Below are positions 46,949 through 63,341 of a DNA stretch of 64,000 nucleotides, piece by piece. The notes under the pieces were generated by a model, which was given only the letters and a program-made list of their open reading frames with translations, made no database searches and was not told where the DNA came from. Numbering within the stretch: position 1 is the stretch's first letter; every line of letters begins with the position of its first letter. The translations under genes were made by a program, and so were the position numbers. Source of the stretch: an uncultured Butyrivibrio sp. (GTDB lineage Bacteria > Bacillota > Clostridia > Lachnospirales > Lachnospiraceae); contig CAMNEA010000006.1 in NCBI GenBank assembly GCA_946536145.1, positions 16,566-80,565 on the forward strand, read 5' to 3'.

Positions 46949-48145
46949 TTACTGCTCGATTGTTATAATATCTGAAAGCACATAGTGAAACAGCGGATAT
47001 GAGCAGTGATCATTTTCTATGTAACCTTTCCTTAGGTCATAAGTGTCCGACGGATCCTCAGGATTTACACCGGTATAATTGCCCTTATAAACAAAATCCA
47101 CCTCACCTTTCCTGAACCGTTCTATGGCTTTGTCCATTGCCTCCTGTGTTCCAAAGGCAGCCACCTGCTGGTTCAGATCCTCCATCTCAACCCAGCCGTT
47201 CTCAAATCCTGCAGATGCATCCGTGCCATACACATGAGCTGCCAGACCTTTTTCTATCTTCCTGTCGGCCATTACTGCATCAGCAGCAGCAAGCACATAG
47301 GGCTCCCAGCATATCCTTGAAGTAACAAGGGATGCAGCAGGTGCAACCTCGGACATACTCTGATTGTATCCGACAAAGTATACGGGTTTTCCCTCTGCGT
47401 TATTCTCCTCACAGGCAATCGCAGGACCGATCGTATCGGTGTGCTGCGAAATAACTATGCATCCATCATCTATAAGGCGCTGCGCAGAGCTCTTTTCCAG
47501 AGCGTAGCTGCTCCAGGTATTGGTGTAGCATACCTTCATGGTCGTTGATGAGACAACAGATCTTGCTCCAAGGAGAAATGCGGTATAACCCGAGATAACT
47601 TCCGGAGTAGGAAACGCGGCAACAAACCCAACAATTGCCTGTTCTTCCGAGATCACACCCTCAAGAATCATCTGTCTTATCTTCATACCCGCAGCTATTC
47701 CGCTGACATACCTGCCCTGGTAGGCCTCACCCTTGAAGGTGTGGTAATTGGAAGGAACAGATTTGCCGGTCATATCCATATACGAAGTCTGACAGAACTG
47801 GATATCGGGATATTGAGGAGCAAGCTCCATGACAACTTCGCTGTAACCGTTAAGGAATATTATGTCACAGCCCTTATCCGCAAGCTCCCTGAGCGGCTCT
47901 TCCATCTCCTCGTCAAGCACGTTGCTGCAGGAAAGGATGTCCACAGCATCTCCATATTTTTTCTCGAGCGCATCGCTTGCAAGGGAAAAATTGTAGGTAT
48001 ATGGCGTACTCTCGTCATTGTCATAGATAAAGCCAACTGTAAGGTGTTCCTTCCTGCCCATGATATTCAGGACACTGAAACAGGTATGAAAGGCAGCCAG
48101 CATGATCAGGCACGTCAGAACAGTCGCAATATAAACCCTTTTCAT
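46949..48145 (-). CDS. BMP/PnrA-family substrate-binding protein, membrane-anchored
   Basis: 398 residues. The N-terminal membrane segment (about 5-28) has no convincing lipobox, so the protein is probably tethered outside the cell. The body fits the Bmp/PnrA purine-nucleoside-binding type fold: LTVGFIYDNDESTPYTYNFS, LADKGCDIIFLNGYS, FKGEAYQGRYVSGIAAGM and CIVISQHTDTIGPAIAC. Its ATG overlaps the stop of the HD-GYP receptor gene (ATGA). There is no ABC permease or ATPase beside it, so I infer a sensing role: it may present a ligand to the receptor rather than to a transporter. Confidence 0.85.
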   Translation of the reverse strand: MKRVYIATVLTCLIMLAAFHTCFSVLNIMGRKEHLTVGFIYDNDESTPYTYNFSLASDALEKKYGDAVDILSCSNVLDEEMEEPLRELADKGCDIIFLNGYSEVVMELAPQYPDIQFCQTSYMDMTGKSVPSNYHTFKGEAYQGRYVSGIAAGMKIRQMILEGVISEEQAIVGFVAAFPTPEVISGYTAFLLGARSVVSSTTMKVCYTNTWSSYALEKSSAQRLIDDGCIVISQHTDTIGPAIACEENNAEGKPVYFVGYNQSMSEVAPAASLVTSRICWEPYVLAAADAVMADRKIEKGLAAHVYGTDASAGFENGWVEMEDLNQQVAAFGTQEAMDKAIERFRKGEVDFVYKGNYTGVNPEDPSDTYDLRKGYIENDHCSYPLFHYVLSDIITIEQ

Positions 48146-51100
48146 ACTTCTCCTCCTTTCTCCTTGGATGCTTTTCTTGCTTCCTCTTCCATCTCCGCAG
48201 CCTGGATCTTGCGGTCCTCTTCAACACGTCTTGCAAGCTCCTCTGCAGCTTCCTTGTCAGCATTCTGGATATCAGCCTGCTTCTGGGCGTAGATCTCGTC
48301 GAGGTTTATGACGCCCTTGTCAATTAGGCGGAAGAATGCATCCAGCGCATCGGGGTCAAACTGCGTTCCGCGCCCCCTTAGCATTTCATTCATAACATAG
48401 GCTGTGTCCATGTGGTTTCTGTAGACACGGTTGGAAGTCATCGCATCAAATGCATCGGCAACTCCTATAATACGTCCAAACAGAGGGATCTCCTCTCCCT
48501 TGAGTCCGTCCGGATAACCCTTGCCGTCATAGCGCTCATGGTGATACCTCGTGCCCTCTTCAACATGCTCTACAAGTGTGAAGTCCTTGAGTATCTCCGC
48601 GCCTCTTGTAACATGTGATTTCATCTGTACATACTCTTCATCTGTGAGCCTTCCCACCTTATTGAGCACGCTGTCAGGAACACCTATCTTGCCGATATCA
48701 TGCATCTGGGCAGCTTTCTTGAGGTTGGATAACATCCTCTCCTTCTGCCACCACTTAAAGCAGTTCATCTCCTGCGCTATAAGTACAGAGTACTCAGCAA
48801 CCCTCAGGGAGTGCTGATGGGTTCTGACGTCCTTGGCATCGACTGCATTTGCTATCGCCATTACCGTCTCATTGGCCATATTGATCTTTATCTGCTGCTG
48901 GTTGAGCTGTCTTTGAACAACAAACCATGTGAACCAGATAATGATCATAGACAGAATCAGTATCATATAGAAAAAGAAATATGGCTGTTCATAGAATTCG
49001 CCTATCTTGACAAGCTCAAACTTGCGCTCCTCCAAAACCCTGCTCCCTGCGCTGTCAAAAATAGCAAGGTGGAAGGTGTATGTACCTGCCGGAAGATTGA
49101 CGTAGACGATATTGTTGAGACTGCTCTGAGGAGAAATAGTCCACTGTCTGTCGTAGCCCTGAAGGTAGTAACCGACATTCGGCTCCTGTACCGTATAGTT
49201 GAGGATCTCAGGGGCAAGCTCTATCCTGCTGACTCCCTGCCCTACCTCTATGGCTCCCTTCTTCGTAACAGGCTGCTGTATTCCGTCAAGCTTAACCGAT
49301 GCCAGCTGCATTCTGTAGGAACGGACATCACTGTTGTATTTCTCAACGTCTATCATATATACGCCAGTATCACATGGAAGAAGCAGTTCTCCCTTGCCGC
49401 CGTAGCAGTTCCAGGAATTGGCTGTAAGGGATGTTCCAAGTCCTCTTCTTGCATCGAGAAGCTCCCAGGCAATCTCGCCGCCTGCGACAAGTTCATCTCT
49501 CTCAACCACATAGATTCCGGCACTTGACATAACAAAAAGAGTGTCTTCGTCCTTGACCCAGATATCGTAGTTGTTAAAATACGGGAACTTATCAAGTACT
49601 CTGATAGTGCCCTCAGGTTCAAGGTAGCACAGGCTGTTGCTGGTTACTATGAACACTCCCTCAGACTTTGGATCTTTTACTGTTCTAAGGATTACTTCAC
49701 TGCTAAGACCGTCTTCGCGCTTCAGCATATCTGTCACTTTGCCGTCCTTTATGACTGCGATGCCATCGCCGTCGGTACCGGCAAGAATGCTGCCGTCGCT
49801 CATCTCTGTTATGGTCAGTATCATTGAGTTGATAAGGCCGTCCTCATTGCGAATTGTCCTGACTACCTTATGGTCTTTGATGTAACTGATACCGCCTTCA
49901 CCTGCCGCGATGATTGTTCCGTCAGAAAGTCCTGTCACAATGCGGGCTCTCTTTCCAAAACTTCCGTTGTCAGCATCATAGGTCCATATCTCGCCATTCT
50001 GTGAATATTCTAAAAGCCCGTTTCCGTATGTGCATATCCACAGATGATTGTCCTCATCCACGTACATGCACCGTATGCGTACTCCTTCAAGCTCCTGCGT
50101 CATCTTATTATGAATCTGTCTGTGGCAGGGCTTATCCACGATATCAAGTCCCTTGTCGGTTCCGATATAGTAAAATCCGTGCCATGAAATAACCGCATTT
50201 ACAACTTTCCTCTCCATACCAATAGCTCCGTAGATATCCTTGAACGGAGATTTTGCAAGGCGAAGCAGTCCAAGTCTCGATGATGTAAACCACAGATTTC
50301 CCTGATAGTCATAGAGCATATTGTCAATTGAGTTATTAAATTCGTTGGTATTTAACCTGTGGTATCCGTTTATGTCAAAATATGCCACACCGCTGTCAGT
50401 GGTAATAAACAGTGTGCCATCGTTCAGATAGTTCATATTATTGATACTGCTCACATCCTCACAGGTCAGGATATCGGTCAGCTTTAATTTATCACCGAAA
50501 ATATCGTAGGAGTATATATGATTGGTAGAAGTTCCGACCATCAGCGTTCCGTCAGGTGAAAAAGCGCAGCAATTGAACAGCTCCTGGTCATCAGGGAGCT
50601 TTGCAGAAGTTAAGACATTGCCATTGCTAAGGAGAAAGAGTCTGCCGTCTGATGCGATCGTTGCAACATGACCGTTCTGATCTGCCGTGATACTCTCGGC
50701 ATAATAGACTTCATCAAGTGTATGCACAGCCTTAAGACCATTGTTCATCTCAATGATCTGCATACTGCTGCTGGTTCCTACATAGTAATATCCGTCTGTT
50801 CCACGGATTATAGACCTTACCGAATTGGATGGAAGCCCGCTCGAAGTATCTATCACATTGACTATCTCTTCACGGATTGCAATGGAAAGACCATTGTCGT
50901 TGGTGCCAATCCAGAGTCGTCCTTCTTCATCAACATAGAGGCAGTTGACATTCTTGACAGATTCATAATCATCGATCCAGCGAAACTCTTTTCCGTTATA
51001 GCGGTATAATCCTGCATAGGTTCCTATCCACAATACACCGTCATTGGTCTGCGCTATATCATTGGCTTCACCGCAGGGAAGACCATTGTTGCTGCTGTAG

Positions 51101-51801
51101 ATACTGTGAACATAGTCATTAAAATCCGGTGCCTCAACGTCAAATGTATTCTCTGCTCTTACGCCAAGCGGCATCGCAAAACCAAGACTGAGAAAAAGGC
51201 ATAAAGTCACAGCTGCCTTTCCAGCTTTTCCTTTTAGTTTTTCTTTCTCATTAGTCTGATCAATGTTCCAGTGCCTTATACGCACAAACAGATACAGAAG
51301 TGCGATCGTAAGTACCTTGTCGGTAAATTCAATGGCCAGCTGGCCGATAACATAGCAGGCAAAAGGCGGCCAGTCCCTGTCGATAAGATAATCAATGACT
51401 CCGTTTCCCCACTTATTGCCGCAATAGCCGCCGTCAAAAATCAGATTGATAGGAACCGATACTATAAGCGAAAAAAGAACCGAAAGTGTAGCGGCCTGCA
51501 TGAATCCGTAAAACCTGTCAAACCACTTTCCCTTTGCCGCAACTCCTATGATAATTCCAAGGGTAATACTCGTAATAGAATAGAAAAGTGAGATCTGGTT
51601 GATAATGCAAAACGCAATATTACCGGTCACTCCCACTACCGCTCCGCAGAAGGGACCGGCGAAGTAGGCACACAGAACTGTGCCAAGCGAATCTGCCCAG
51701 AGAGGCAGCTCCAGCCATGAACATAACAGTTTCCCTCCAATGTTCAGGCATACGCATAAAGCAACAAATAAAACTATCTGCCACGTTTTTCTCTTTTTCA
51801 T
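48142..51801 (-). CDS. Membrane receptor: ECF-like membrane domain, beta-propeller, Y_Y_Y domain and HD-GYP phosphodiesterase
   Basis: About 1219 residues. Residues 1-190 form about six membrane segments with an ECF-S-like arrangement (LADSLGTVLCAYFAGPFCGAV-type opening, TSITLGIIIGVAAKGKWF). Another membrane segment leads to a propeller of Reg_prop repeats (DGVLWIGTYAGLYRYNGKEF, EGRLWIGTNDNGLSI), a Y_Y_Y domain (GYYLQGYDRQWT, NLPAGTYTFHL), a membrane segment at about 925 and a C-terminal HD-GYP domain with intact HDIGKIGVPD and HHERYDGKGYP, which should hydrolyse cyclic-di-GMP. I start at ATG 51801, seven bases after AAGGGG; the track start (TTG) overlaps that site. The BMP gene overlaps its end. 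Confidence 0.88.
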   Translation of the reverse strand: MKKRKTWQIVLFVALCVCLNIGGKLLCSWLELPLWADSLGTVLCAYFAGPFCGAVVGVTGNIAFCIINQISLFYSITSITLGIIIGVAAKGKWFDRFYGFMQAATLSVLFSLIVSVPINLIFDGGYCGNKWGNGVIDYLIDRDWPPFACYVIGQLAIEFTDKVLTIALLYLFVRIRHWNIDQTNEKEKLKGKAGKAAVTLCLFLSLGFAMPLGVRAENTFDVEAPDFNDYVHSIYSSNNGLPCGEANDIAQTNDGVLWIGTYAGLYRYNGKEFRWIDDYESVKNVNCLYVDEEGRLWIGTNDNGLSIAIREEIVNVIDTSSGLPSNSVRSIIRGTDGYYYVGTSSSMQIIEMNNGLKAVHTLDEVYYAESITADQNGHVATIASDGRLFLLSNGNVLTSAKLPDDQELFNCCAFSPDGTLMVGTSTNHIYSYDIFGDKLKLTDILTCEDVSSINNMNYLNDGTLFITTDSGVAYFDINGYHRLNTNEFNNSIDNMLYDYQGNLWFTSSRLGLLRLAKSPFKDIYGAIGMERKVVNAVISWHGFYYIGTDKGLDIVDKPCHRQIHNKMTQELEGVRIRCMYVDEDNHLWICTYGNGLLEYSQNGEIWTYDADNGSFGKRARIVTGLSDGTIIAAGEGGISYIKDHKVVRTIRNEDGLINSMILTITEMSDGSILAGTDGDGIAVIKDGKVTDMLKREDGLSSEVILRTVKDPKSEGVFIVTSNSLCYLEPEGTIRVLDKFPYFNNYDIWVKDEDTLFVMSSAGIYVVERDELVAGGEIAWELLDARRGLGTSLTANSWNCYGGKGELLLPCDTGVYMIDVEKYNSDVRSYRMQLASVKLDGIQQPVTKKGAIEVGQGVSRIELAPEILNYTVQEPNVGYYLQGYDRQWTISPQSSLNNIVYVNLPAGTYTFHLAIFDSAGSRVLEERKFELVKIGEFYEQPYFFFYMILILSMIIIWFTWFVVQRQLNQQQIKINMANETVMAIANAVDAKDVRTHQHSLRVAEYSVLIAQEMNCFKWWQKERMLSNLKKAAQMHDIGKIGVPDSVLNKVGRLTDEEYVQMKSHVTRGAEILKDFTLVEHVEEGTRYHHERYDGKGYPDGLKGEEIPLFGRIIGVADAFDAMTSNRVYRNHMDTAYVMNEMLRGRGTQFDPDALDAFFRLIDKGVINLDEIYAQKQADIQNADKEAAEELARRVEEDRKIQAAEMEEEARKASKEKGGEV

Positions 51802-51824
51802 ACCCAATCCCCTTATTAATATTT

Positions 51825-52256: not shown

Positions 52257-53957
52257 TTATAACCTCCTTATTGCAAGCATTGTTATATCGTCAAACTGAT
52301 CGGCGCTTTGCTTGAACTCATCAAGTTCATCCTTCATGGATTCTATGAGTTCTCTCGGCTGCATGTCCTTAAATCTGTTAAGTACCCTGCCTATCCTGTC
52401 AAGACCGAAGAGCTCTCCCCCTTCATCCTGGGCCTCAGCAACTCCATCTGTATAGACATAGAGCATTCCGCCCTCCGGAATTGTGAATGAATAATCCTCA
52501 TACTCCATTCCCTCAAGGCATCCCAGTACAACTCCATGTGGCTCCTCAAAGAGCTCAAAGCATCCGTCAATGCCCGTAATAAACGGAAATTCGTGTCCTG
52601 CGTTTGCGGCAGTTACCGTAAATGTCTCCGTGTCCACTATTCCAAGCCAGGCTGTGAGAAACATGGAGCTTGGATTGTCTGCACACAGACTGTCATTGGT
52701 TATACTAAGTACCTGCGCCGGTGTCCTTCCCGGGATGCAGTTGCTCCTTAGAAGTGATTTACTGGTCATCATGAAAAGAGCTGCCGGGATTCCCTTGTCA
52801 GAAACATCCGCAATGACCAGCCCTATGTGTGTTTCATCTATTCTGAAGAAATCATAAAAGTCTCCACCCACATCCCTTGCAGGTACCATAGTGGCAAATA
52901 GTTTAAACCTGTCATTTCCGGGAAAAGACTCAAAGTTTACCGGAAGTGCGCCGCTTTGTATATTCCTTGCAAGCTCAAGCTCGGTGGCAATTCTCTCTCT
53001 GGTAGCAGCATCCTTCCTGATCTGCAGGAATGATGCCTCTATTTCCTTCTCCATATCCACCATGGTCTTCCAGAGTTCTTCGATCTCATCGCCGGTGTTT
53101 AGCGCCAGATCTTCAAATACGGATCTGTACTCTCCGCCTTCACCATGATCGCCAATGTCTTTATACCGCCTTGCACTGGCGGTCAGCTCATCAAGAGGTC
53201 TGACAACGCGCATCTTCATCCTCTTGGCCGTTCTGTTTGAACACCAGAGAATAACAAGCAGCATCAAGGGAATATAAATACCAATTATTGTCCATATCTC
53301 ATTTGCAAGTTTGTCTAGCGGCACATTTACAGCAATATATCCCACAAGTTTGCCATACTCATCGTAGATTCCCCGATAGTCTGTACCTACCCAGCCCGAT
53401 GTCTTTCCATAAGCTACCGGCATAAACCAGTCCGACTTCATCGCTTTTTCTATGGTTGCAGGCTTTTCAATATCACCGTTGTCATCTGAAACCCACTGAG
53501 CCGGAAGATAAGCGCTGTCAGGATCGTTTCCATCCATTACAAAAACAAGTCGCTTTGCCCTTTCATCCATAAATACATAGGCAATATTATCAATCTGTGC
53601 TCTCTCCCTGATAAGTGACAGAACATTTCTTTTCGCAAGGAATTCTTCATCTATATATGGGATTATCAGCTGCTTATACTCATCAGAAAATTCATCTGCT
53701 CGGATTTCCTCAGGAGTTGAATAATATAATTCTTTTACCCACTTAATGGTGTCAAGGATATACTGCTCTCCAATGAGCTGTGTTGCTATCTCGCCCTCAT
53801 GGCGAAGCTCTCTCTTGTAGGTACCCATGGATGGGAAGATCACAATCAGGTGCACAATAAGCGTTGATAGTCCGAGAAGTACAAACATCCCAAAAAGGAT
53901 AGCCCTATTGACTACCCTTTCCAGTGAATCTTTTGGTTTTAATGATTTGTATGCCAT
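52257..53957 (-). CDS. Membrane-bound SpoIIE/RsbU-type PP2C phosphatase
   Basis: 566 residues. A membrane segment (about 20-43), an extracellular Cache-like domain of about 180 residues and a second membrane segment (about 228-248) lead to a HAMP-like linker and a coiled coil. The C-terminal 240 residues form a SpoIIE-type phosphatase with VPARDVGGDFYDFF, IADVSDKGIPAALFM and YTDGVAEAQDEGGELFG. Such enzymes remove phosphate from STAS-type regulator proteins in response to a signal. No STAS or anti-sigma gene is adjacent. The ribosome binding site is only one base from ATG, so translation may be weak or coupled. It lies 34 bases after the double-glycine peptide gene. Confidence 0.9.
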   Translation of the reverse strand: MAYKSLKPKDSLERVVNRAILFGMFVLLGLSTLIVHLIVIFPSMGTYKRELRHEGEIATQLIGEQYILDTIKWVKELYYSTPEEIRADEFSDEYKQLIIPYIDEEFLAKRNVLSLIRERAQIDNIAYVFMDERAKRLVFVMDGNDPDSAYLPAQWVSDDNGDIEKPATIEKAMKSDWFMPVAYGKTSGWVGTDYRGIYDEYGKLVGYIAVNVPLDKLANEIWTIIGIYIPLMLLVILWCSNRTAKRMKMRVVRPLDELTASARRYKDIGDHGEGGEYRSVFEDLALNTGDEIEELWKTMVDMEKEIEASFLQIRKDAATRERIATELELARNIQSGALPVNFESFPGNDRFKLFATMVPARDVGGDFYDFFRIDETHIGLVIADVSDKGIPAALFMMTSKSLLRSNCIPGRTPAQVLSITNDSLCADNPSSMFLTAWLGIVDTETFTVTAANAGHEFPFITGIDGCFELFEEPHGVVLGCLEGMEYEDYSFTIPEGGMLYVYTDGVAEAQDEGGELFGLDRIGRVLNRFKDMQPRELIESMKDELDEFKQSADQFDDITMLAIRRL

Positions 53958-53991: not shown

Positions 53992-54153
53992 TTATGAGCC
54001 ACTGCCGAAAACACTGCCGTTTCCGCCTCCCTTATCAGTGTTATATCCTGATTCCGGATCCACATCTTTATTCGGTGGATTTACTCCTCCTGCAACATTT
54101 TGCAGAGCTGCCTCTTCCACTTCGAGTCCTTCTATGTTCTTATTGATATCCAT
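53992..54153 (-). CDS. 53-residue peptide with double-glycine leader
   Basis: I start at ATG 54153 (MDINKNIEG), five bases after the strong GGAGGT, not the track start. The N-terminal part ends in LEVEEAALQNVAGG, matching the bacteriocin-type double-glycine leader pattern (two hydrophobic-acidic positions, then V-x-GG). The predicted 30-residue mature part is VNPPNKDVDPESGYNTDKGG followed by GNGSVFGSGS: polar, Gly-rich and without Cys. It may be an exported signalling or antimicrobial peptide or a modified natural product. No C39 peptidase or modification enzyme is in the window. Confidence 0.7.
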   Translation of the reverse strand: MDINKNIEGLEVEEAALQNVAGGVNPPNKDVDPESGYNTDKGGGNGSVFGSGS

Positions 54154-54219
54154 TTGACACCTCCGTAGTATTATCATCTCTGTAAATTTATACGAACTGT
54201 GATAGGCTGTGGCAATTAT

Positions 54220-57200
54220 TTATGCGAGATTTCCAAAATCATCATCATTCCTGCTCTGGAATGCAGGCATATACAGTATTGCTATGCACAGTCCCGCACT
54301 TATTATCGCGATGATGAACAGCCATACAGTTGCTCCGCCTCTCTGATCAAAGATATCGGTAAATCTGATGGAAGTACCCTTTGCAGCATCCTCATTATCG
54401 GCTTCAAGAAGTCCCTCCTGGTAATTCATGTCAGCACCTGTAAGTATCTTTTCCGGTGTGATGACAACCGTATAATCTGAAGCCTCGGTGATAGGGAACT
54501 GAACGTATCCGTTGTCATCAACAACAGTTGTTCCGACAGCCGTGATCTCTTTAGTCTCCTCGTCGTACTTATAAAGGGTTGCATTCATGCCGGCATGTTC
54601 CTTATTGGAAGGAACCGTGATAGTTGCCTCAAAGCCATAGTTCTCCTTACTTGTCATCGAGAACTCTACATGAGGATTGCTTCCAACCACTTCTGTAAGG
54701 TGCTTATTCGGAATATTCCTGCTTCCGAGCTTGACGCCCATATCTGCATAGGTAACAGTTGAAGCATTCTTCCAGGTAGGCGTGGCATTCGTTGTACCCT
54801 GCGTCTGACCTGCGGTCGTATTCGCTGTAACCTGGGTCTGACTTGTGGTATTAGCTGTGCTCTGGGTCTGTGCAGTGGTATTTGTTGTACCCTGCGCCTG
54901 ACCGGTGGTATTAGTTGTAACCTGGGTCTGAGCTGTGGTATTTGTTGTACCCTGCGCCTGACCGGTGGTATTAGCTGTAACCTGGGTCTGAGCGGTGGAT
55001 TCTGTTGTTCCCTGTGTCTGACTCGTGGTGTTTTCTGTTGTAACCTGTGTCTGACTTGCAGTGGTTTCTGTTGTTCCCGTCTGACTTGCGGTATTTGCTG
55101 TAACCTGGGTCTGAGCGGTAGGTTCTGTTATAGTTGTACCTTGTGTCTGAGCGGTAGTTTCCGCTGTGCCCTGTGTCTGACTTGCAGTGGTTTCTGTTGT
55201 TCCCTGCGTCTGAGCGGTGGGTTCTGTTGTAACCTCTGTCTGAGCAGTAGTTTCTGTCGTCCCCTGCTCTGTGCCGGTTGTTTCTGTTGCAGCCTGCGTC
55301 TGAGCGGTGGGTTCTGTTGTAACCTCTGTCTGAGCAGTAGTTTCTGTCGTCCCCTGCTCTGTGCCGGTTGTTTTTGTTGCAGCCTGCTCTGTGCCGGTTG
55401 TTTCTGTTGTTACTTGCTCTGTGCCGGTGGCATTTGCAGATGTAACGCTGCTTCCTTTTATCTCCCACGTCACATCATTTGGCATTCTGAGCTTCACGGA
55501 TACATCCTTGCCATCCATCGCATCAAACAGCTGACTCGATACCTGTGAGGTTCCGCTCATCTCGACTTCAATGACTGCACCCTCATCTGCTTTACTTACT
55601 TCGTTGGAGATCCTGCTCCATCCGCTGGTCTTGGCAAGACCGATGTTGGTATTACCTGTCGCGTCTGCAATATAAGGATCGCGGATAATATTGAAATCAG
55701 AATCCGAATCACTGTCTGTTCCCTTGTTCTCAGAACCATTGACTGTTCCATTTTCGGAACCGGAATCACTATTCTGCTTGTCTCCTGATCCTGCTATTCC
55801 ATTTGGCACAGGTGTAAGTCCGCTGCCGCCTCCGGCTCCTGCGCCTTCCTTCTGCGCATCGCCTGCGGCTGCACCTGTAGCTTCAGCTCCGTCAACTTCC
55901 TGGCTGGTTACCTCACTGACATTATCTGCCCTGTCAACCGCTGCAAAGTAGAAATTGTACTGCTTGCTTGGGTCAAGGCCGGATATGGTATAGGTTCCCA
56001 TCGAAACACCCTCAGCCTCCTTGCTGGTCTCAATAAGGATTCCCATGTCAAAAATGTACTGGCTTGAAGGTGCACCGCCTGATCCATTAGAAGCCTCGCT
56101 GTAGAGGAGCTTGAACCTGTCGACTCCACTGAGCTCATCCTTACCTGCCACTGCCACAATAGTACCCGATCCGTCATTAGCAGGTGTAACTGTAGCTACA
56201 TTCATCTTGGGCGCTACAGTGTCATACATTACATCTGCCGTAGACAGATTTACAGCATTATCATTCGGATCAACTATCTTGGCATAAATGTAGTTCTTCT
56301 GATCCTTGATTATCTCAGGCTTTTTGTCTTCTGAGTATTCTCTCCACTGCGAATCCTTCTCCTTGATAGCCGCCTCAACATCACTGGTGGATGAGTAGAA
56401 GGTATCACTGATAAAGTAGTAGATCTTATCAGCCTTGTAGCTGTAATCACCTGCAGTTATGGTGATCTTCTTTGCCTCCTTAGTATAGAAAGCCAGCGCA
56501 TCCTTTGAGTTGAACTTATCGCTCAAATAATCTCCAACCACGATCTTGGCATTGGTAGAATTGATTATCAGCTTAGTTATCACATCACTGATGTTTCCTG
56601 CTTTGTCAACTGCAACGATATACAGCTTGTAGTTCTTGGAAGAATCAAGCTTCTTTACCGTGCAGCTTCCGGTTGCATTTCCGTCTTCATCAGTGGTTGC
56701 TTCAATGGTAGTTCCATTCTTAACGATCTGCTTACCGTCGGGATCAGTCATGTCCCACTTAAGCTCTTTGCATACAAGCATGAACCTGTCAACTTTGCTA
56801 AGTGCGTCTTTACCACTGAGCTTAACAAGCGCGCTTTCACCACCTTCCTGATAGGTCACGGCTGAATCTGTGATAATCGGCGCAACGGTGTCGTAAATAA
56901 TCTTACCTGTGGAAAGATTTATTTGTTTCCCGTTTACATCAATTATCTTCACATAAATATAATTTCCCTCGTTCTCATTAGCCTGCGGTCTGTACTCTTC
57001 AGAATACTCACGCCACATAGACTCCTTCTCCTTGATGTCTGCTTCTACATCCTGGGGTGTTGGGAAGAACTTTTCGCTAATGTAATATTCAACTTTCGTC
57101 GCTTTTTCAGCTATTATTGCAACCTTTTGTGCATAATTCAGATTTACTGCTATACTATCTGATTTCTGGAACTCATCGCTATAGTATTCTTCACCTACCT

Positions 57201-60200
57201 CAATCCTGTAGATAGGATCAACATTCAGCACTTCCTTCGTCTCTATATCACTGATATTTCCTGCCTTATCAAGAGCTATGATATAGAGATAATAGTTTTC
57301 ATCAGGATCCAGGTTTTTAATATCGTAAGTGCATGAAGCCACTCCGTCATCATCTATTGTCGGCGTAAGCTTAGTGCCGTCATCGATGATCTCCTGCTCG
57401 CTGGGAGTACCGTCTATAGATGACTCAGATCTACATATCATCATGAAATTTGCTACTCCGCTGAGATTATCTTCTCCGGTCAGAGTAAGTGTAGCTGTCT
57501 CTTTATCAGGTTTCACCGCTGCCGATGTAATATTCGGAGCCGCTGTGTCATAGACAACATTTGCGGTTGAGAGGTATGCGACACTTCCTTTTCCGTCAGT
57601 TACCCTCGCATAGACGTAGTTGTTCTGATCTGCAGCTATCTCAGGAGCAGCACTCTTTAAGTACTCTCTCCAGTCATCATTATCACTCTTAATAGCATCA
57701 TTGACCGCTGCAGGTGTGGCATAGAACTTGTCGGTCAGATAATACTCGATTGAATCAATGCCATATACACTGTTCTCAGCAGTTATAGCTATCGTTTTGG
57801 CTTTATTTGTATAGTACGCAACAGCATCCTCAGTCTGGAAGATATTGCTTGAGTAGCTGCCCACCTTGATATTGGATGTTGAAATATTGCGCAGGAGCTT
57901 ACTTGTGACATCACATATATTGCCGGCCTTGTCAGTTGCCATCAGGTAGACAATATAGTTCAGGGTCACATCAAGATCCTTCATGGAAGCAGATCCTGTT
58001 GCCTCCCCATCTCCTGATGCAGCGGCCTTTACTTTTGTGCCTTTCTTTTGCATCTCGTCTTTTGTAGGAGTCTTCATATCACTGCCTGTGTATACCTTAT
58101 ACAGAACTGTGAAAGTCTCTATTCCGCTCAGGGCATCCGTGCCGGCGATGTCCAGTCTGCAGTTCTTTCCTCCGCCCGAGAAGATTGCAACCTGCTTGGT
58201 TATCTTGGGACTTACTGTGTCATAGATGCAGTCTCCGGTTGAAACAAATGTCTTGTTGCCCGCAAGGTCATAGACTATCGCGTAAATGTAGTTCTTTTTG
58301 TTCTTGCTGATGGTCGGCGCATCCGAATCATCATAGGCATTCCAAAGAGAACTGGTCTCCGGAACCTCCTTCAAAAGGTCTCCGGCTGCCTCATAGAACT
58401 TGTCTCCAACGTAGTAGAGAACATAGTCTACATCTTTGTCACAGTTTATCTTAATTGTTTCTGCCTTGTCTGTTGTAAGAGCGACGGTATCTGTATCTAC
58501 AAACTTGTAGCTCTTGTAATTGCCCACCTCTATGGAAGCTGATGAAGCATTTCTGTCTATCCTGATGACTATTGTAAAGGTCTGGATATCCTTGGAGTCC
58601 TTATTGTTCTTGAAATCCAGTTCCAGGGTGTTCTCGCCATCCTTGGTAACAGTGTAGCTGTCCTTGAAATTATTCTTTCCCGAATCGGAAATCGTATATC
58701 CCTCACAGGTCAGAGTGACATCCTTGTTGAACCAGTCTCTGTATTTTCCGCCGTTGTACTGAACAGGAAGATCGATATCCTTGTAGATTACGATTCCGGT
58801 AATGGTAACTGTCCTCTCACTTCCGGTAGTCTTATCCCTGAATGTCAGGTCAAAGTCAGGTGCCTTACCTGCTTTATTCCAGATATAGTAGTTGGCAAAG
58901 CTGCCACCTTCCGGAGGACCTACCTCAAAGCCGTTAGCGCTGATCCTTACACTGTCATGGTAGTAGTCAGCCTTTACGGTCTTTCCGTCATACAGTACAA
59001 CAAAGGCTGTAATCGTAATGTTCTTAAGTCTCTGCGAAACGATCCTTCCTGTAGTCTTGTTTTTGAGATATACCAGAACTCCCTGCTTTGCACCGGGGGT
59101 CTTGTAGATCAGAGAATCCCCATAAACGCCCTCATCAGGTAATGCTATCTGGTAACCGGAAGGAGCACCGATCTCAACCTGATCATAATAGTTTTCCTTG
59201 AGAGTAGTCTCTCCGTTGTAGGTAAAGCCGGAAGCCTCTGCCACTTCAACAGAGTTTCTGAAGATCCCTGAAAAGTTTCCTTTTCCCTGATAGTTAAGGG
59301 CATATTCGCTGCCGGTTTCTACAACCTGCCCTGCACTTGGGAAATCTGTTCCAAGAATAACTTCATAGTCAGTTCCCTCAACAAGAGCGTTTCCACCCAG
59401 AGCAAAAGAATATGCATCCTTGGCAAAATCAACATTGCTGGTTGCGTAATCGATATTGCCGGACTCCGTCATCTTAAGATTCGGTGACTTAGTGGCGGTC
59501 TTCTCAATGTTCAGAGGATCAATGGTTATGGCTCCATAATCCTTGGAAACTGTGAATGTCTTAGTTACAGCCGCAGATGTGTAATCGTAGGTAATGCTGT
59601 AAGTAACATCATTATCCTTATAAGTCCCGGCATTTGTCTGCTTGAAAGCATCCTCCTTAGTGTAACTCGAAATCGACACAGTAACGCCTGTTGCAGTATC
59701 AGGTGCTACAGGTTCCTTGTAGCCTTCAAGAAGCGACTGTTCCTTTCCGTTATATACAAGACCTGTCGCAGCAACAGGAGCTCCGCCGTTCTTTGTAAAG
59801 AAATCATCAAACGAAAATGGTGGCGGATTTAAAATAAGATTTTCAATCTTCTGCCTGAATACAACTCCCTTATTATTCTTTAAATATACATAGAAAGTCT
59901 GCGCAACCGGATTTACTTTGTCATAAGTATAGGTGCTGTCAAAAGTGCCAGATGCATCATCGCTTATTGTGTAGCCTGTTGCCGGCGCAATTATTACTGA
60001 CTGGTAGTATTTTCCGTCGGTCTTGAAAGGCTGCCCATCAAAAGTCAGTGCAACCTTAGGAAGACCAAAGTCCACAGAATAGTTAGAATTGAAATCACCG
60101 ACTCCAATTGCGGAAAAATCTACTGTGTTTATCTTTTGGTCACTTCCCTCTGCCACAGGAATACCTTCTTCGCCCAGTGCAGTATAGGTGACCAGATAAT

Positions 60201-63200
60201 CCTTGTCCTTGACAAGGGTGTATTCCTGTCCCGAAGCAGGTGTGTAATCTTTTGTGTACTTGAGAGTGTAAGTTCCTCCATTTAAGAAGGCGGTAGCAGC
60301 TGCATCAGCATCGGGTTTTGTAGTGATAGTACTGATATCAACAGTCTTTATCTGAAGTCCTGATATAGTAGCCGTGTATTCTCTTGTCTTCCCGGACTTT
60401 TTCAAATATACCCGGAAGTCTTCGCCGGTTCTGACTTTATATTCCGCAGAGTCAGCATAGTCGCTGTCCGGAACCTTTATCTGCAGGGCGTTGCCTCCGG
60501 AGATTTTGCCTGCAAGCAGTACTCCATAGTTGTAGGAGGCAGCCATTGTCTCTTCTCCGTTAAAAGTAACGACCGGCTTGTCTACCGTAAAGCTTTTTCT
60601 TGTCTGCCCCTCGTATTTATCTCCTTTGCCGGTGCAAAAAATGGTATACTTTTTGCCTATCTCAAGGGGGCTGCTTGTATAGTCACTGCCACTTTCATCA
60701 TTTTCGCCTTCCCTGATAACATAGGTATAGTCATCGCCAATATTAAGTGTTTCCTCAGTTCCGCCATTATCGTATTTCAGGGTAAAGAGATCATCGTTTT
60801 CAAAATCTACTTCACTGAAGGTGGCGTCTTTAATATCTCTCTTTTTTACAGTCAGATTATTTACAGGAACGCGGAAAGGCTCTCCATCGCCCTTTTTCAC
60901 ATATACATAAAAGTTCTGACTATCGCCTAGAGTTGTATAATCCACCGAATCGGTGTAATCTGATCCATCAAGTGAAATCTTATAGTTTGCAGAATCACTG
61001 CAGGCCAGAGTTACTTTCAGTATGTATGGATTAGTGGCCGTGTCACTGCCATTGAATTTTATTTTTGCTCCATCAGGCAGGGAAAGCTTGAATTTAAAAT
61101 CCTTGGTTCCTTCATAATTATTGCCCGTACCGGCAAAAGTAATGGTGTTTTCAGTTGTAGAATCCGCAACCGGCACTGACTCAAGCGTAGCGGTGTAATC
61201 CGTACCTTTTGTCATTGCAGCAGGTGTAGAAGACGAGTTTACATGCTTTAAATAAACACCTGTAGCTGCATATTCAGAGGCATCAATGGTAGTTCCGCTG
61301 CTTACGGCTTGATTGTTTCCAAAAAATACATCTACAAAATTATCATTACTATATGTCGTACCAATGTCATTTTTAGCGATATTTGCTCTAAAATCTCCGG
61401 TTTTGAATGAAACAGTCTCTGTCGTCATTGACGGTGCACCATTCTTTTTTTCAAAATATACTTCAAATTGATATTTCTGTTCCCCTGCAGATGTACCGTC
61501 ATAACCTGTCTGGTTTACAATACTTATTCTATTGAACCGATACGTAGGGAAATCTGTTCCTTCTTCAGCAAAAAATTGAGTAGTATTTCCTGTATAGTCC
61601 TTCGAACCTAAATAGGGTGTCTGATCCTGAGTATTATACACAAGACTCTGATCCGGGATTGAGCTAAATGTAATCTGATCTTTTATAAACTGAGGCATAT
61701 TATCATTACCTGCCCCAAACAGTCCCTTCCTCAATGCATTTCTGGTTATGATCTGGTTTCCACCACAAACAGTGCACAGTCCGTCTTCACCGAACGTGCA
61801 CGCTTCAATCTCTGTATAGTCGCAGAGGGCGCAGGTCCTTGTGTGGTTGCCCTTTCCATCGCTCTTCCACTTACCCATCTTATGCTCTTCAGTTATAGTC
61901 CTGTCATCGTCGTCTTCAGCGCACAACGAGCAGACACCTGTGTGGGTGCCATCGCCGTTATCTTTATATTCGTACTTATGAGTGTGGGCCTTGCCTGTTC
62001 CGTCGTCCTCTGTCTCTTCTTCCGCACCGCAGTCCGTGCAATATCTCTTTAAAGTGCCCTCATCGGTCTTCTCATAGTCTGTGTAGTTGTGTCCTTCCGT
62101 GATCTCGTCGCCGCATACGCTGCAGACTCCGGTGTGTGTTCCGTCGTCATTGTCAGTATAGTCATACTTATGTGTTGTGCACTCTGTTGTAGCAGCATCA
62201 TCTTCGACAAGGGGCTTTTCATAACCACAGATATCACAGATGTTGTCATCACCAAACTCACAGTCCTCTGTCACGGATCTGCCGGAGTGATAATAGAGGA
62301 TGTGCGTTCCATCATTATTAGATGACTTTGATTCCACATAGTCTTCTTCGTCATCATCGTTATTCAGATCATCGTTATTATTCTGATCGTCATTATTGTT
62401 CAGGTCATCGTTATTATTCTGATCGTCATTATTATTCAGGCCATCGTTATTGTTCTGATCGTCATTATTGTTCAGGTCATCGTTATTGTTCTGATCGTCA
62501 TTATTGTTCAGGTCATCGTTATTGTTCTGCTCGTCATTATTATTCAGGTCATCGTTATTGTTCTGCTCGTCATTATTATTCAGGTCATCGTTATTGTTCG
62601 GATTGTTATTGTTCTGATCATCGTTGTTGTCCTGATCATTGTTGTTCTGATCGTCATTATTATTCAGGTCATCGTTATTGTACAGGTCATTATTATTGTT
62701 CTGATCATCGTTGTTGTTCTGGTCATTATTGTTGTTCTGATCATCGTTGTTGTTCAGACCATCATTATTGTTCTGACCATCGTTGTTGTTCTGGTCACCA
62801 TTATTGTTCTGATTGCCATTATTGTTCTGATTGTCATTATTGTTCAGATCATCATTGTTGTTTTGATCATCATTATTGTTTTGATCATCATTATTGTTTT
62901 GATCATCATTATTGTTCAGATCATCGTTATTGTTCTGGTCATCGTTATTGTTCTGGTCATCATTATTATTCAGGTCAACGTCGTTATTAAGGTCGTCATT
63001 ATTCAGATTGTCTGTATCATCACCGCCCTGACCATTATTCCCATCGCTGTTAAGATCGTCTCCACTGTTATCATTATTGTTCTGATCAGAGTCGTCAGGC
63101 AGAGTCGTATTTTCACCACCATTTTCATCAATGCTGGTGTTCTCCTCAATCCTGTTCTCATTCAGATTGACATCATTAACAGTCGCGTAACTGAACATGG

Positions 63201-63303
63201 ATCCTATTCCGGACGCCGTGCACAGCATGCTGGTTATCAGAAGACCTATAAAGATTCTCTTCGCTCCCGCCTTAAGATTTTTAAACTGTTTTTTTATTTT
63301 CAT
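54220..63303 (-). CDS. Giant surface protein (about 3027 residues) with Asn/Asp and Thr/Gln tracts
   Basis: I start at ATG 63303 (MKIKKQFKNL), eight bases after GAGGGG. In order: a signal segment (IFIGLLITSMLCTASGIGSM); about 250 residues of Asn/Asp repeats; a Cys/His-rich section (about 345-515) of HTHKYEYKDNGDGTHTGVC-type repeats with several CxxC pairs; a long stretch of MBG/Ig-like beta domains; four modules of about 218 residues (opening I-VGxYxSxxF; containing YDTxAPxIT and GxDxLSGV; ending DKAGNISDV); a Thr/Gln-rich tract; and a C-terminal membrane segment (ATVWLFIIAIISAGLCIAIL) with a short acidic end. It looks like a stalk-type adhesin anchored by its C-terminal membrane segment; no LPxTG. 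Confidence 0.88.
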   Translation of the reverse strand: MKIKKQFKNLKAGAKRIFIGLLITSMLCTASGIGSMFSYATVNDVNLNENRIEENTSIDENGGENTTLPDDSDQNNNDNSGDDLNSDGNNGQGGDDTDNLNNDDLNNDVDLNNNDDQNNNDDQNNNDDLNNNDDQNNNDDQNNNDDQNNNDDLNNNDNQNNNGNQNNNGDQNNNDGQNNNDGLNNNDDQNNNNDQNNNDDQNNNNDLYNNDDLNNNDDQNNNDQDNNDDQNNNNPNNNDDLNNNDEQNNNDDLNNNDEQNNNDDLNNNDDQNNNDDLNNNDDQNNNDGLNNNDDQNNNDDLNNNDDQNNNDDLNNDDDEEDYVESKSSNNDGTHILYYHSGRSVTEDCEFGDDNICDICGYEKPLVEDDAATTECTTHKYDYTDNDDGTHTGVCSVCGDEITEGHNYTDYEKTDEGTLKRYCTDCGAEEETEDDGTGKAHTHKYEYKDNGDGTHTGVCSLCAEDDDDRTITEEHKMGKWKSDGKGNHTRTCALCDYTEIEACTFGEDGLCTVCGGNQIITRNALRKGLFGAGNDNMPQFIKDQITFSSIPDQSLVYNTQDQTPYLGSKDYTGNTTQFFAEEGTDFPTYRFNRISIVNQTGYDGTSAGEQKYQFEVYFEKKNGAPSMTTETVSFKTGDFRANIAKNDIGTTYSNDNFVDVFFGNNQAVSSGTTIDASEYAATGVYLKHVNSSSTPAAMTKGTDYTATLESVPVADSTTENTITFAGTGNNYEGTKDFKFKLSLPDGAKIKFNGSDTATNPYILKVTLACSDSANYKISLDGSDYTDSVDYTTLGDSQNFYVYVKKGDGEPFRVPVNNLTVKKRDIKDATFSEVDFENDDLFTLKYDNGGTEETLNIGDDYTYVIREGENDESGSDYTSSPLEIGKKYTIFCTGKGDKYEGQTRKSFTVDKPVVTFNGEETMAASYNYGVLLAGKISGGNALQIKVPDSDYADSAEYKVRTGEDFRVYLKKSGKTREYTATISGLQIKTVDISTITTKPDADAAATAFLNGGTYTLKYTKDYTPASGQEYTLVKDKDYLVTYTALGEEGIPVAEGSDQKINTVDFSAIGVGDFNSNYSVDFGLPKVALTFDGQPFKTDGKYYQSVIIAPATGYTISDDASGTFDSTYTYDKVNPVAQTFYVYLKNNKGVVFRQKIENLILNPPPFSFDDFFTKNGGAPVAATGLVYNGKEQSLLEGYKEPVAPDTATGVTVSISSYTKEDAFKQTNAGTYKDNDVTYSITYDYTSAAVTKTFTVSKDYGAITIDPLNIEKTATKSPNLKMTESGNIDYATSNVDFAKDAYSFALGGNALVEGTDYEVILGTDFPSAGQVVETGSEYALNYQGKGNFSGIFRNSVEVAEASGFTYNGETTLKENYYDQVEIGAPSGYQIALPDEGVYGDSLIYKTPGAKQGVLVYLKNKTTGRIVSQRLKNITITAFVVLYDGKTVKADYYHDSVRISANGFEVGPPEGGSFANYYIWNKAGKAPDFDLTFRDKTTGSERTVTITGIVIYKDIDLPVQYNGGKYRDWFNKDVTLTCEGYTISDSGKNNFKDSYTVTKDGENTLELDFKNNKDSKDIQTFTIVIRIDRNASSASIEVGNYKSYKFVDTDTVALTTDKAETIKINCDKDVDYVLYYVGDKFYEAAGDLLKEVPETSSLWNAYDDSDAPTISKNKKNYIYAIVYDLAGNKTFVSTGDCIYDTVSPKITKQVAIFSGGGKNCRLDIAGTDALSGIETFTVLYKVYTGSDMKTPTKDEMQKKGTKVKAAASGDGEATGSASMKDLDVTLNYIVYLMATDKAGNICDVTSKLLRNISTSNIKVGSYSSNIFQTEDAVAYYTNKAKTIAITAENSVYGIDSIEYYLTDKFYATPAAVNDAIKSDNDDWREYLKSAAPEIAADQNNYVYARVTDGKGSVAYLSTANVVYDTAAPNITSAAVKPDKETATLTLTGEDNLSGVANFMMICRSESSIDGTPSEQEIIDDGTKLTPTIDDDGVASCTYDIKNLDPDENYYLYIIALDKAGNISDIETKEVLNVDPIYRIEVGEEYYSDEFQKSDSIAVNLNYAQKVAIIAEKATKVEYYISEKFFPTPQDVEADIKEKESMWREYSEEYRPQANENEGNYIYVKIIDVNGKQINLSTGKIIYDTVAPIITDSAVTYQEGGESALVKLSGKDALSKVDRFMLVCKELKWDMTDPDGKQIVKNGTTIEATTDEDGNATGSCTVKKLDSSKNYKLYIVAVDKAGNISDVITKLIINSTNAKIVVGDYLSDKFNSKDALAFYTKEAKKITITAGDYSYKADKIYYFISDTFYSSTSDVEAAIKEKDSQWREYSEDKKPEIIKDQKNYIYAKIVDPNDNAVNLSTADVMYDTVAPKMNVATVTPANDGSGTIVAVAGKDELSGVDRFKLLYSEASNGSGGAPSSQYIFDMGILIETSKEAEGVSMGTYTISGLDPSKQYNFYFAAVDRADNVSEVTSQEVDGAEATGAAAGDAQKEGAGAGGGSGLTPVPNGIAGSGDKQNSDSGSENGTVNGSENKGTDSDSDSDFNIIRDPYIADATGNTNIGLAKTSGWSRISNEVSKADEGAVIEVEMSGTSQVSSQLFDAMDGKDVSVKLRMPNDVTWEIKGSSVTSANATGTEQVTTETTGTEQAATKTTGTEQGTTETTAQTEVTTEPTAQTQAATETTGTEQGTTETTAQTEVTTEPTAQTQGTTETTASQTQGTAETTAQTQGTTITEPTAQTQVTANTASQTGTTETTASQTQVTTENTTSQTQGTTESTAQTQVTANTTGQAQGTTNTTAQTQVTTNTTGQAQGTTNTTAQTQSTANTTSQTQVTANTTAGQTQGTTNATPTWKNASTVTYADMGVKLGSRNIPNKHLTEVVGSNPHVEFSMTSKENYGFEATITVPSNKEHAGMNATLYKYDEETKEITAVGTTVVDDNGYVQFPITEASDYTVVITPEKILTGADMNYQEGLLEADNEDAAKGTSIRFTDIFDQRGGATVWLFIIAIISAGLCIAILYMPAFQSRNDDDFGNLA
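54800..55445 (-). repeat. Thr/Gln tract repeats in the giant protein
   Basis: Tandem units such as TETTAQTQGTT, TASQTQGT and TEQVTTETTG repeat for about 210 residues. At DNA level units of 30-48 bases recur, and one longer block is duplicated (55200-55260 and 55315-55370). It probably forms an extended, glycosylated-like wall-spanning stalk. Confidence 0.85.
62340..63095 (-). repeat. Asn/Asp tract repeats in the giant protein
   Basis: Units of DDLNNNDDQNNN (18, 21 and 36 bases at DNA level) repeat about 250 residues near the N-terminus. The plus-strand ORFs at 62322-62990 and 62863-63393 are shadows of this repeat. Confidence 0.9.
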
Positions 63304-63317
63304 AATATTACCCCTCT

Positions 63318-63341
63318 TTGTGACCACGACGCCTGTCACAA
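63318..63341 (-). promoter_or_regulatory. Inverted repeat next to the giant gene's ribosome binding site
   Basis: TTGTGAC-N10-GTCACAA, perfect 7-base arms, ends one base before the AGAGGGG site of the giant gene. It could be a leader hairpin affecting translation, or an operator. It is not a standard CRP site because the spacing is wrong. Confidence 0.45.

Follow-up and report, generated by a model that had tools for sequence, protein, structure and literature searches.

The peptide gene and its neighbours

The window, i.e. the whole stretch of 64,000 nucleotides of Butyrivibrio DNA analysed in this work, carries on its minus strand, at 53992-54153, a gene whose translation from the ATG yields a putative double-glycine (GG) peptide precursor of 53 aa, MDINKNIEGLEVEEAALQNVAGG^VNPPNKDVDPESGYNTDKGGGNGSVFGSGS. 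This confirms the GG-leader ORF of the original prediction, in which the strand was left unstated; ORFs on the plus strand at the same positions were rejected, their reading being interrupted by stops. The ribosome binding site, already described as strong, is the GGAGGTG sequence (54158-54164) located 4 nt upstream of the ATG. The 23-residue leader (54085-54153), ending in ...LEVEEAALQNVAGG, fits the double-glycine columns with V-12, L-7, V-4 and the final GG, the exception to the C39 consensus being the A at position -8 instead of the usual E or D. The predicted mature core of 30 residues (53995-54084) is rich in Gly and Ser and devoid of Cys, as anticipated, but also rich in Asn, and has a net charge of about -2. 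Pfam and NCBIfam searches with the 53-aa peptide gave no match and revealed no long leader of the nitrile-hydratase-like or Nif11-like types, and a direct search with the same peptide retrieved no convincing homologue, only mostly spurious hits with E>0.1; relatives of the peptide were reached only via the similarity of the adjoining phosphatase.

The peptide ORF starts 66 bp after the stop of the gene for a giant secreted repeat protein of 3,039 aa (54220-63339) and is separated by 34 bp from the downstream gene of a 566-aa membrane SpoIIE-type phosphatase (52257-53957), both on the minus strand as well. A simple scan found no terminator-like site between the giant protein, peptide and phosphatase genes and, therefore, their co-transcription is plausible; a terminator-like stem does lie within the phosphatase gene, at its start, but such a hit is expected by chance. 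Both flanking genes had been named in the original prediction, although the term adhesin used there for the giant protein goes beyond its only Pfam match, fn3. This protein contains long repeats of NNNDD, recurring CxxC segments of GTHTGVCSVCG-like sequence and a region rich in TQ, and has a transmembrane (TM) segment at its C-terminus, with no LPXTG. Elsewhere in the window, ORF P0005 (51825-52166) has no family match, and the region 48142-51807 encodes a 1,221-aa protein in which a membrane part resembling an ECF-S component is joined to a Reg_prop propeller bearing a Y_Y_Y domain and to an HD-GYP domain.

Pairing with one clade of SpoIIE phosphatases

A search with the phosphatase identified relatives in 69 of 79 Butyrivibrio genomes. 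Small ORFs with a double-glycine leader were sought in the window and in 60 SpoIIE phosphatase neighbourhoods (referred to by L numbers) taken by phosphatase similarity alone, which together with the window amount to about 980 kb. A GG stretch was found beside each of the 28 phosphatases of one clade, 27 of these stretches being intact. A strict automatic rule placed a GG ORF at 25/28 clade members versus 1/36 other SpoIIE phosphatases (p=2e-13), and a relaxed rule, applied to all, at 27/28 versus 4/36 (p=9e-13), p-values that overstate the pairing because related loci were treated as independent. Strict GG hits located more than 400 bp away from any phosphatase were only four in the about 980 kb. 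The 28 phosphatases constitute a single group in a maximum-likelihood tree (support 96/93), which is nonetheless diverse, with ectodomains down to about 30% identity. The GG ORF adjoins the phosphatases that are similar in full length to the window's protein, mostly within about 120 bp, and its placement varies among upstream on the same strand, divergent, and downstream convergent; simple inheritance as a passenger in one operon is thus no explanation for the linkage.

At three of the clade loci the GG stretch escaped the first rule and was recognised on visual inspection. The L067 peptide has a GA leader. L068, with a variant leader, is a paralogue of the window pair within the source genome, which thus has a second pair; this genome is a draft, about 73% complete, and Butyrivibrio sp. 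UBA3740 is among its relatives. The GG stretch of L075 was left out of the intact set because it has no in-frame start codon, probably as the result of a frameshift. GG-like ORFs running antisense inside phosphatase genes (L095, L097, L101 and L114) were discarded as artefacts. Judged from these genomic comparisons, the GG peptide ORF and the phosphatase of this clade are a conserved gene pair, beyond what chance would produce, which bears out the conservation at homologous loci that had been proposed as a check.

Leaders and cores of the related peptides

Alignment of 31 related peptides revealed G at position -1 in all of them and at -2 in 30, together with V/I/T-4, L-7 (29/31) and L/I/V/M-12, so the GG site is kept in the homologues; neither its loss nor the lack of a C39 transporter, two of the refuting conditions set originally, was observed. 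These columns are those read by C39 peptidases, according to the leader consensus taken from PMC6363468. The assignment of the window precursor as a double-glycine peptide is strongly supported.

The cores, of 13-49 residues, are hydrophilic and rich in Gly, Pro and Asn, with a median charge of -1, a median GRAVY of -0.68 (positive in 3/31) and no Cys in 25 of the 31. They diverge fast among relatives, and some cores of related phosphatases are hard to align, so that a single binding motif may not be common to all. That of the window resembles those of L060, L063 and L066 (GYNTDKGGGNGSVFG vs [GA]YSxDExxTGNGTIYG). A short G(x)N element occurs in 17/31 cores, against a mean of 5.9 and a maximum of 13 in shuffled sequences, a count that is inflated by near copies and refers to an element chosen after inspection. 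Core similarity tracks ectodomain similarity (r=0.69), a correlation that common descent alone could explain. On the other hand, the cores of different pairs within one genome are unlike, as would be expected for private channels. Relative pairs of such peptides that are sufficiently diverged show dN/dS values of 0.17-0.36, near-identical pairs being uninformative and only those with enough synonymous change used, which argues for purifying selection on the diverged peptides.

These data bear on the possibility that the peptide ORF is a false call, or that it travels with the phosphatase gene without having a function. Being short, single and unmatched by any database family, with cores that align poorly over the clade, it could be read in this way, but the association holds at every one of the clade loci despite the changes in orientation, and the low dN/dS values together with good ribosome binding sites make this explanation highly improbable. 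As for the kind of peptide, the predicted core of the window is not bacteriocin-like: its charge of -2 departs from the cationic, hydrophobic or amphipathic core of class II bacteriocins, and the cores of the family are hydrophilic, in line with the mismatch pointed out originally. The annotated genes around the window peptide include none recognised as immunity-like, although short immunity genes can be overlooked.

The phosphatase and its outside domain

The phosphatase consists of an N-terminal TM segment, an outside domain of about 180 residues, a second TM segment, a linker and the SpoIIE catalytic domain (aa 375-565; 52263-52835), which matches Pfam SpoIIE with an E-value of 1.4e-45 and conserves in the alignment the Asp residues of the metal site. 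The extracytoplasmic domain with its flanks (aa 40-225; 53283-53840) gave rise to an ectodomain-only profile that retrieves exactly the 28 clade places in the 79 genomes. A weak dCache_1 match was obtained for 4/28 clade members (best E 0.005), and the best PDB matches of the ectodomain model are Cache chemoreceptors (E 1.7e-3, with low TM-scores). This model, built on a two-sequence alignment and of low confidence (pLDDT 63), shows a helical and then PAS-like order of elements; the AF2 model of the full phosphatase is poor (pLDDT 51). The ectodomain model and these matches hint weakly at a Cache-like domain of the ligand-binding type. Outside the genus, weakly related ectodomains occur with STAS or RsbW genes nearby but with no GG peptide, which counts against the ligand reading proposed below.

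Gene neighbourhoods of the pairs

The giant protein of the window, a possible part of the locus, has homologues upstream of the pair only in L060, L063 and L066 (37-40% identity over about 500 residues), where two genes lie between the homologue and the pair. Other large secreted proteins are encoded near other pairs, one of them common to L058, L061, L062 and L064, and L068 with its own. The HD-GYP and Bmp-family genes downstream of the window pair are conserved in L084 alone, where the phosphatase is a distant member of the clade. Because the neighbours differ between pairs, the control of surface proteins by the pair is only suggested by them.

Two further observations concern these neighbourhoods. 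In L084 (9489-16099) the identity with the window exceeds 70% for the HD-GYP and Bmp-family genes but is 33% for the adjacent, distant pair, a pattern that would fit an exchange of pairs at a single locus. In addition, a family of small proteins with a GG leader and a zinc-ribbon-like mature part, with two CxxC motifs, is encoded beside phosphatases or NHLM operons (L059 6879-7088; L062 10189-10398; L064 8470-8679; L077 7989-8654; L109 6848-7045; L172-L174; L178; L189; L008 1381-1602); if a C39 transporter does export a zinc ribbon, it would be unusual.

The GG product itself could stay at the surface, as part of the matrix or cell wall or in association with the giant protein, with the phosphatase monitoring its export or assembly. 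The large secreted proteins encoded near the pairs of the window and of L058, L060, L061, L062, L063, L064, L066 and L068, as well as the exported-looking GG zinc-ribbon proteins, would fit this explanation, which we consider improbable given that the large proteins differ between subclades and that a structural role would be surprising for cores as short as 13-20 residues.

Exporter and partner-switching genes

The genome-wide search for a C39 peptidase-transporter, another of the checks proposed, found one match in the source genome (G000:C46, PF03412 E 7e-34). It is an NHLM-type ABC1 protein, scoring 855.7 bits with TIGR03796 (cut-off 853.3), and it is followed by an ABC2 that falls just below the cut-off of TIGR03797 (676.4 vs 709.4); both models score above cut-off in L077. 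C39 proteins are present in 18/18 genomes with the clade versus 43/61 others (p=0.005, uncorrected for relatedness). No exporter gene is adjacent to the pair in the window, pairs without a linked exporter being the rule.

The source genome yielded six matches for STAS and three for HATPase_c_2, all above cut-off, and its STAS and RsbW homologues are 53-69% identical to those of L109. No STAS or RsbW gene was found beside the window pair; such genes are present at a few other pair loci, and in the subclade L058/L061/L062 about 7 kb separate the pair from a STAS gene and an RsbW-like gene in the same stretch. The run in L077 comprises STAS, a 155-aa membrane protein, NHLM ABC1 and ABC2, two GG zinc-ribbon proteins, a phosphatase of the clade and a GG peptide. 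That of L109 starts with a GG peptide, a GG zinc-ribbon protein, a SpoIIE phosphatase of another clade, an RsbW-like gene and two other genes, and continues with STAS, a second RsbW-like gene, a 138-aa membrane protein, C39 ABC1 and ABC2. Most of this arrangement is carried by L171, L172, L173 and L189, the latter with no SpoIIE in the stretch examined. These runs indicate a tendency of GG peptides, partner-switching genes and SpoIIE phosphatases to co-occur with the exporter in Butyrivibrio.

As an observation in its own right, an NHLM export operon recurs in the genus (L109 6532-15935; L171-L173; L189) with genes for SpoIIE, a GG protein of about 77 aa with a EEFEAAWDALKMEKKGYTGNMRAE core, the GG zinc ribbon, RsbW, STAS, the second RsbW-like protein, the 138-aa membrane protein and the two ABC components.

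The exporter genes lend some appeal to the view of the peptide as an effector, bacteriocin-like or with another secreted function, whose production or export would be controlled by a phosphatase sensing something else: NHLM exporters have been named as bacteriocin exporters, and phosphatase, STAS and RsbW genes sit within exporter operons as a regulator of export would. Nevertheless, the cores are hydrophilic and mostly of negative GRAVY, no immunity-like gene turned up among the annotated neighbours of the window peptide, where a short one could escape notice, orphan pairs without exporter are the rule and a single ectodomain clade tracks the peptides, all of which renders the effector role unlikely, if less so than a surface product.

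A candidate peptide-receptor module

We favour instead the peptide as a ligand of the phosphatase; the pairing and the exporter can be read in the genomes, the ligand-receptor action being what we infer. In such a peptide-receptor signalling module, to which we assign a probability of roughly 0.6, the 53-aa double-glycine precursor would be cut after GG, and its 30-aa core would be exported in trans by the C39/NHLM ABC exporter of the genome, which has this machinery. The core, or a piece of it, would then bind the extracytoplasmic Cache-like domain of the co-encoded SpoIIE phosphatase, altering its activity through the linker; the phosphatase would dephosphorylate a STAS anti-anti-sigma protein, which in this form would draw an RsbW-type kinase off its partner (i.e. 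partner switching). The outcome would probably be a self- or population-sensing switch. We give about even odds to the wider generalisation that GG peptides are direct ligands of SpoIIE phosphatases with a partner-switching output, with 2-3 private pairs in some genomes and shared NHLM exporters whose operons often carry partner-switching genes. Of the cell-surface signalling role originally suggested by the position of the peptide gene, the link to the phosphatase has gained from the clade-wide pairing and the C39 exporter, whereas that to the giant protein, extending to three other pairs only, is weaker; signalling as such stays a deduction.

To our knowledge, most SpoIIE/RsbU-type phosphatases have no known extracellular ligand. 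The conserved pair puts a candidate ligand and a candidate receptor side by side, making the ligand question directly testable. If true, this would be the first peptide communication system for Butyrivibrio, an important fibre-degrading genus of the rumen, and NHLM exporters would have a role beyond bacteriocin export.

Comparison with known systems

The literature surveyed, with most subscription papers and all preprints outside its scope, holds no account of GG peptides with SpoIIE, of peptide pheromones with partner switching or of NHLM with anti-sigma, nor of Butyrivibrio double-glycine peptides or Butyrivibrio SpoIIE; SpoIIE and phosphatase are unmentioned in a 2026 survey of rumen bacteriocins. 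Like RsbU, SpoIIE and SiaA, the window phosphatase joins a SpoIIE catalytic domain to a membrane sensor part, in a genome with STAS and RsbW proteins; unlike them, it is encoded with a secreted-peptide gene, and its score with the SiaA equivalog model is 57.5 against a cut-off of 700 bits.

The NHLP/NHLM exporter family (TIGR03796/TIGR03797) was defined by Haft 2010 (PMC2887384), with GG at average position 83 in precursors with nitrile-hydratase leaders and 70 in those with Nif11 leaders. The exporter is common to both systems, but the leaders described here are short and of neither type, and several Butyrivibrio NHLM clusters carry SpoIIE, STAS and RsbW genes, whereas the terms phosphatase and anti-sigma are absent from PMC2887384. 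In the LahT/PCAT peptidase-exporters of Lachnospiraceae (PMC6363468), as would hold here, the C39 domain accepts widely differing cores provided that the leader end is conserved; the substrates there are Nif11-type lanthipeptide precursors, in contrast to the unmodified-looking, mostly Cys-free cores of our peptides.

A close parallel is provided by GG pheromones of the ComC/ComD and BlpC/BlpH type, which likewise combine a short GG-leader precursor, a C39 ABC exporter in the genome, a peptide gene beside that of a membrane receptor candidate and cores that vary between lineages. The known peptide receptors of Gram-positive bacteria are mainly histidine kinases or cytoplasmic regulators. In ComC/ComD and BlpC/BlpH the receptor is a histidine kinase, while here the candidate is a SpoIIE-type phosphatase and the exporter is NHLM-type and usually unlinked. 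The near-constant pairing of peptide and phosphatase suggests a new mode of peptide signalling, read by a phosphatase rather than by the usual sensor kinase, a system that would work like a GG-pheromone system yet is not a member of those with histidine-kinase receptors.
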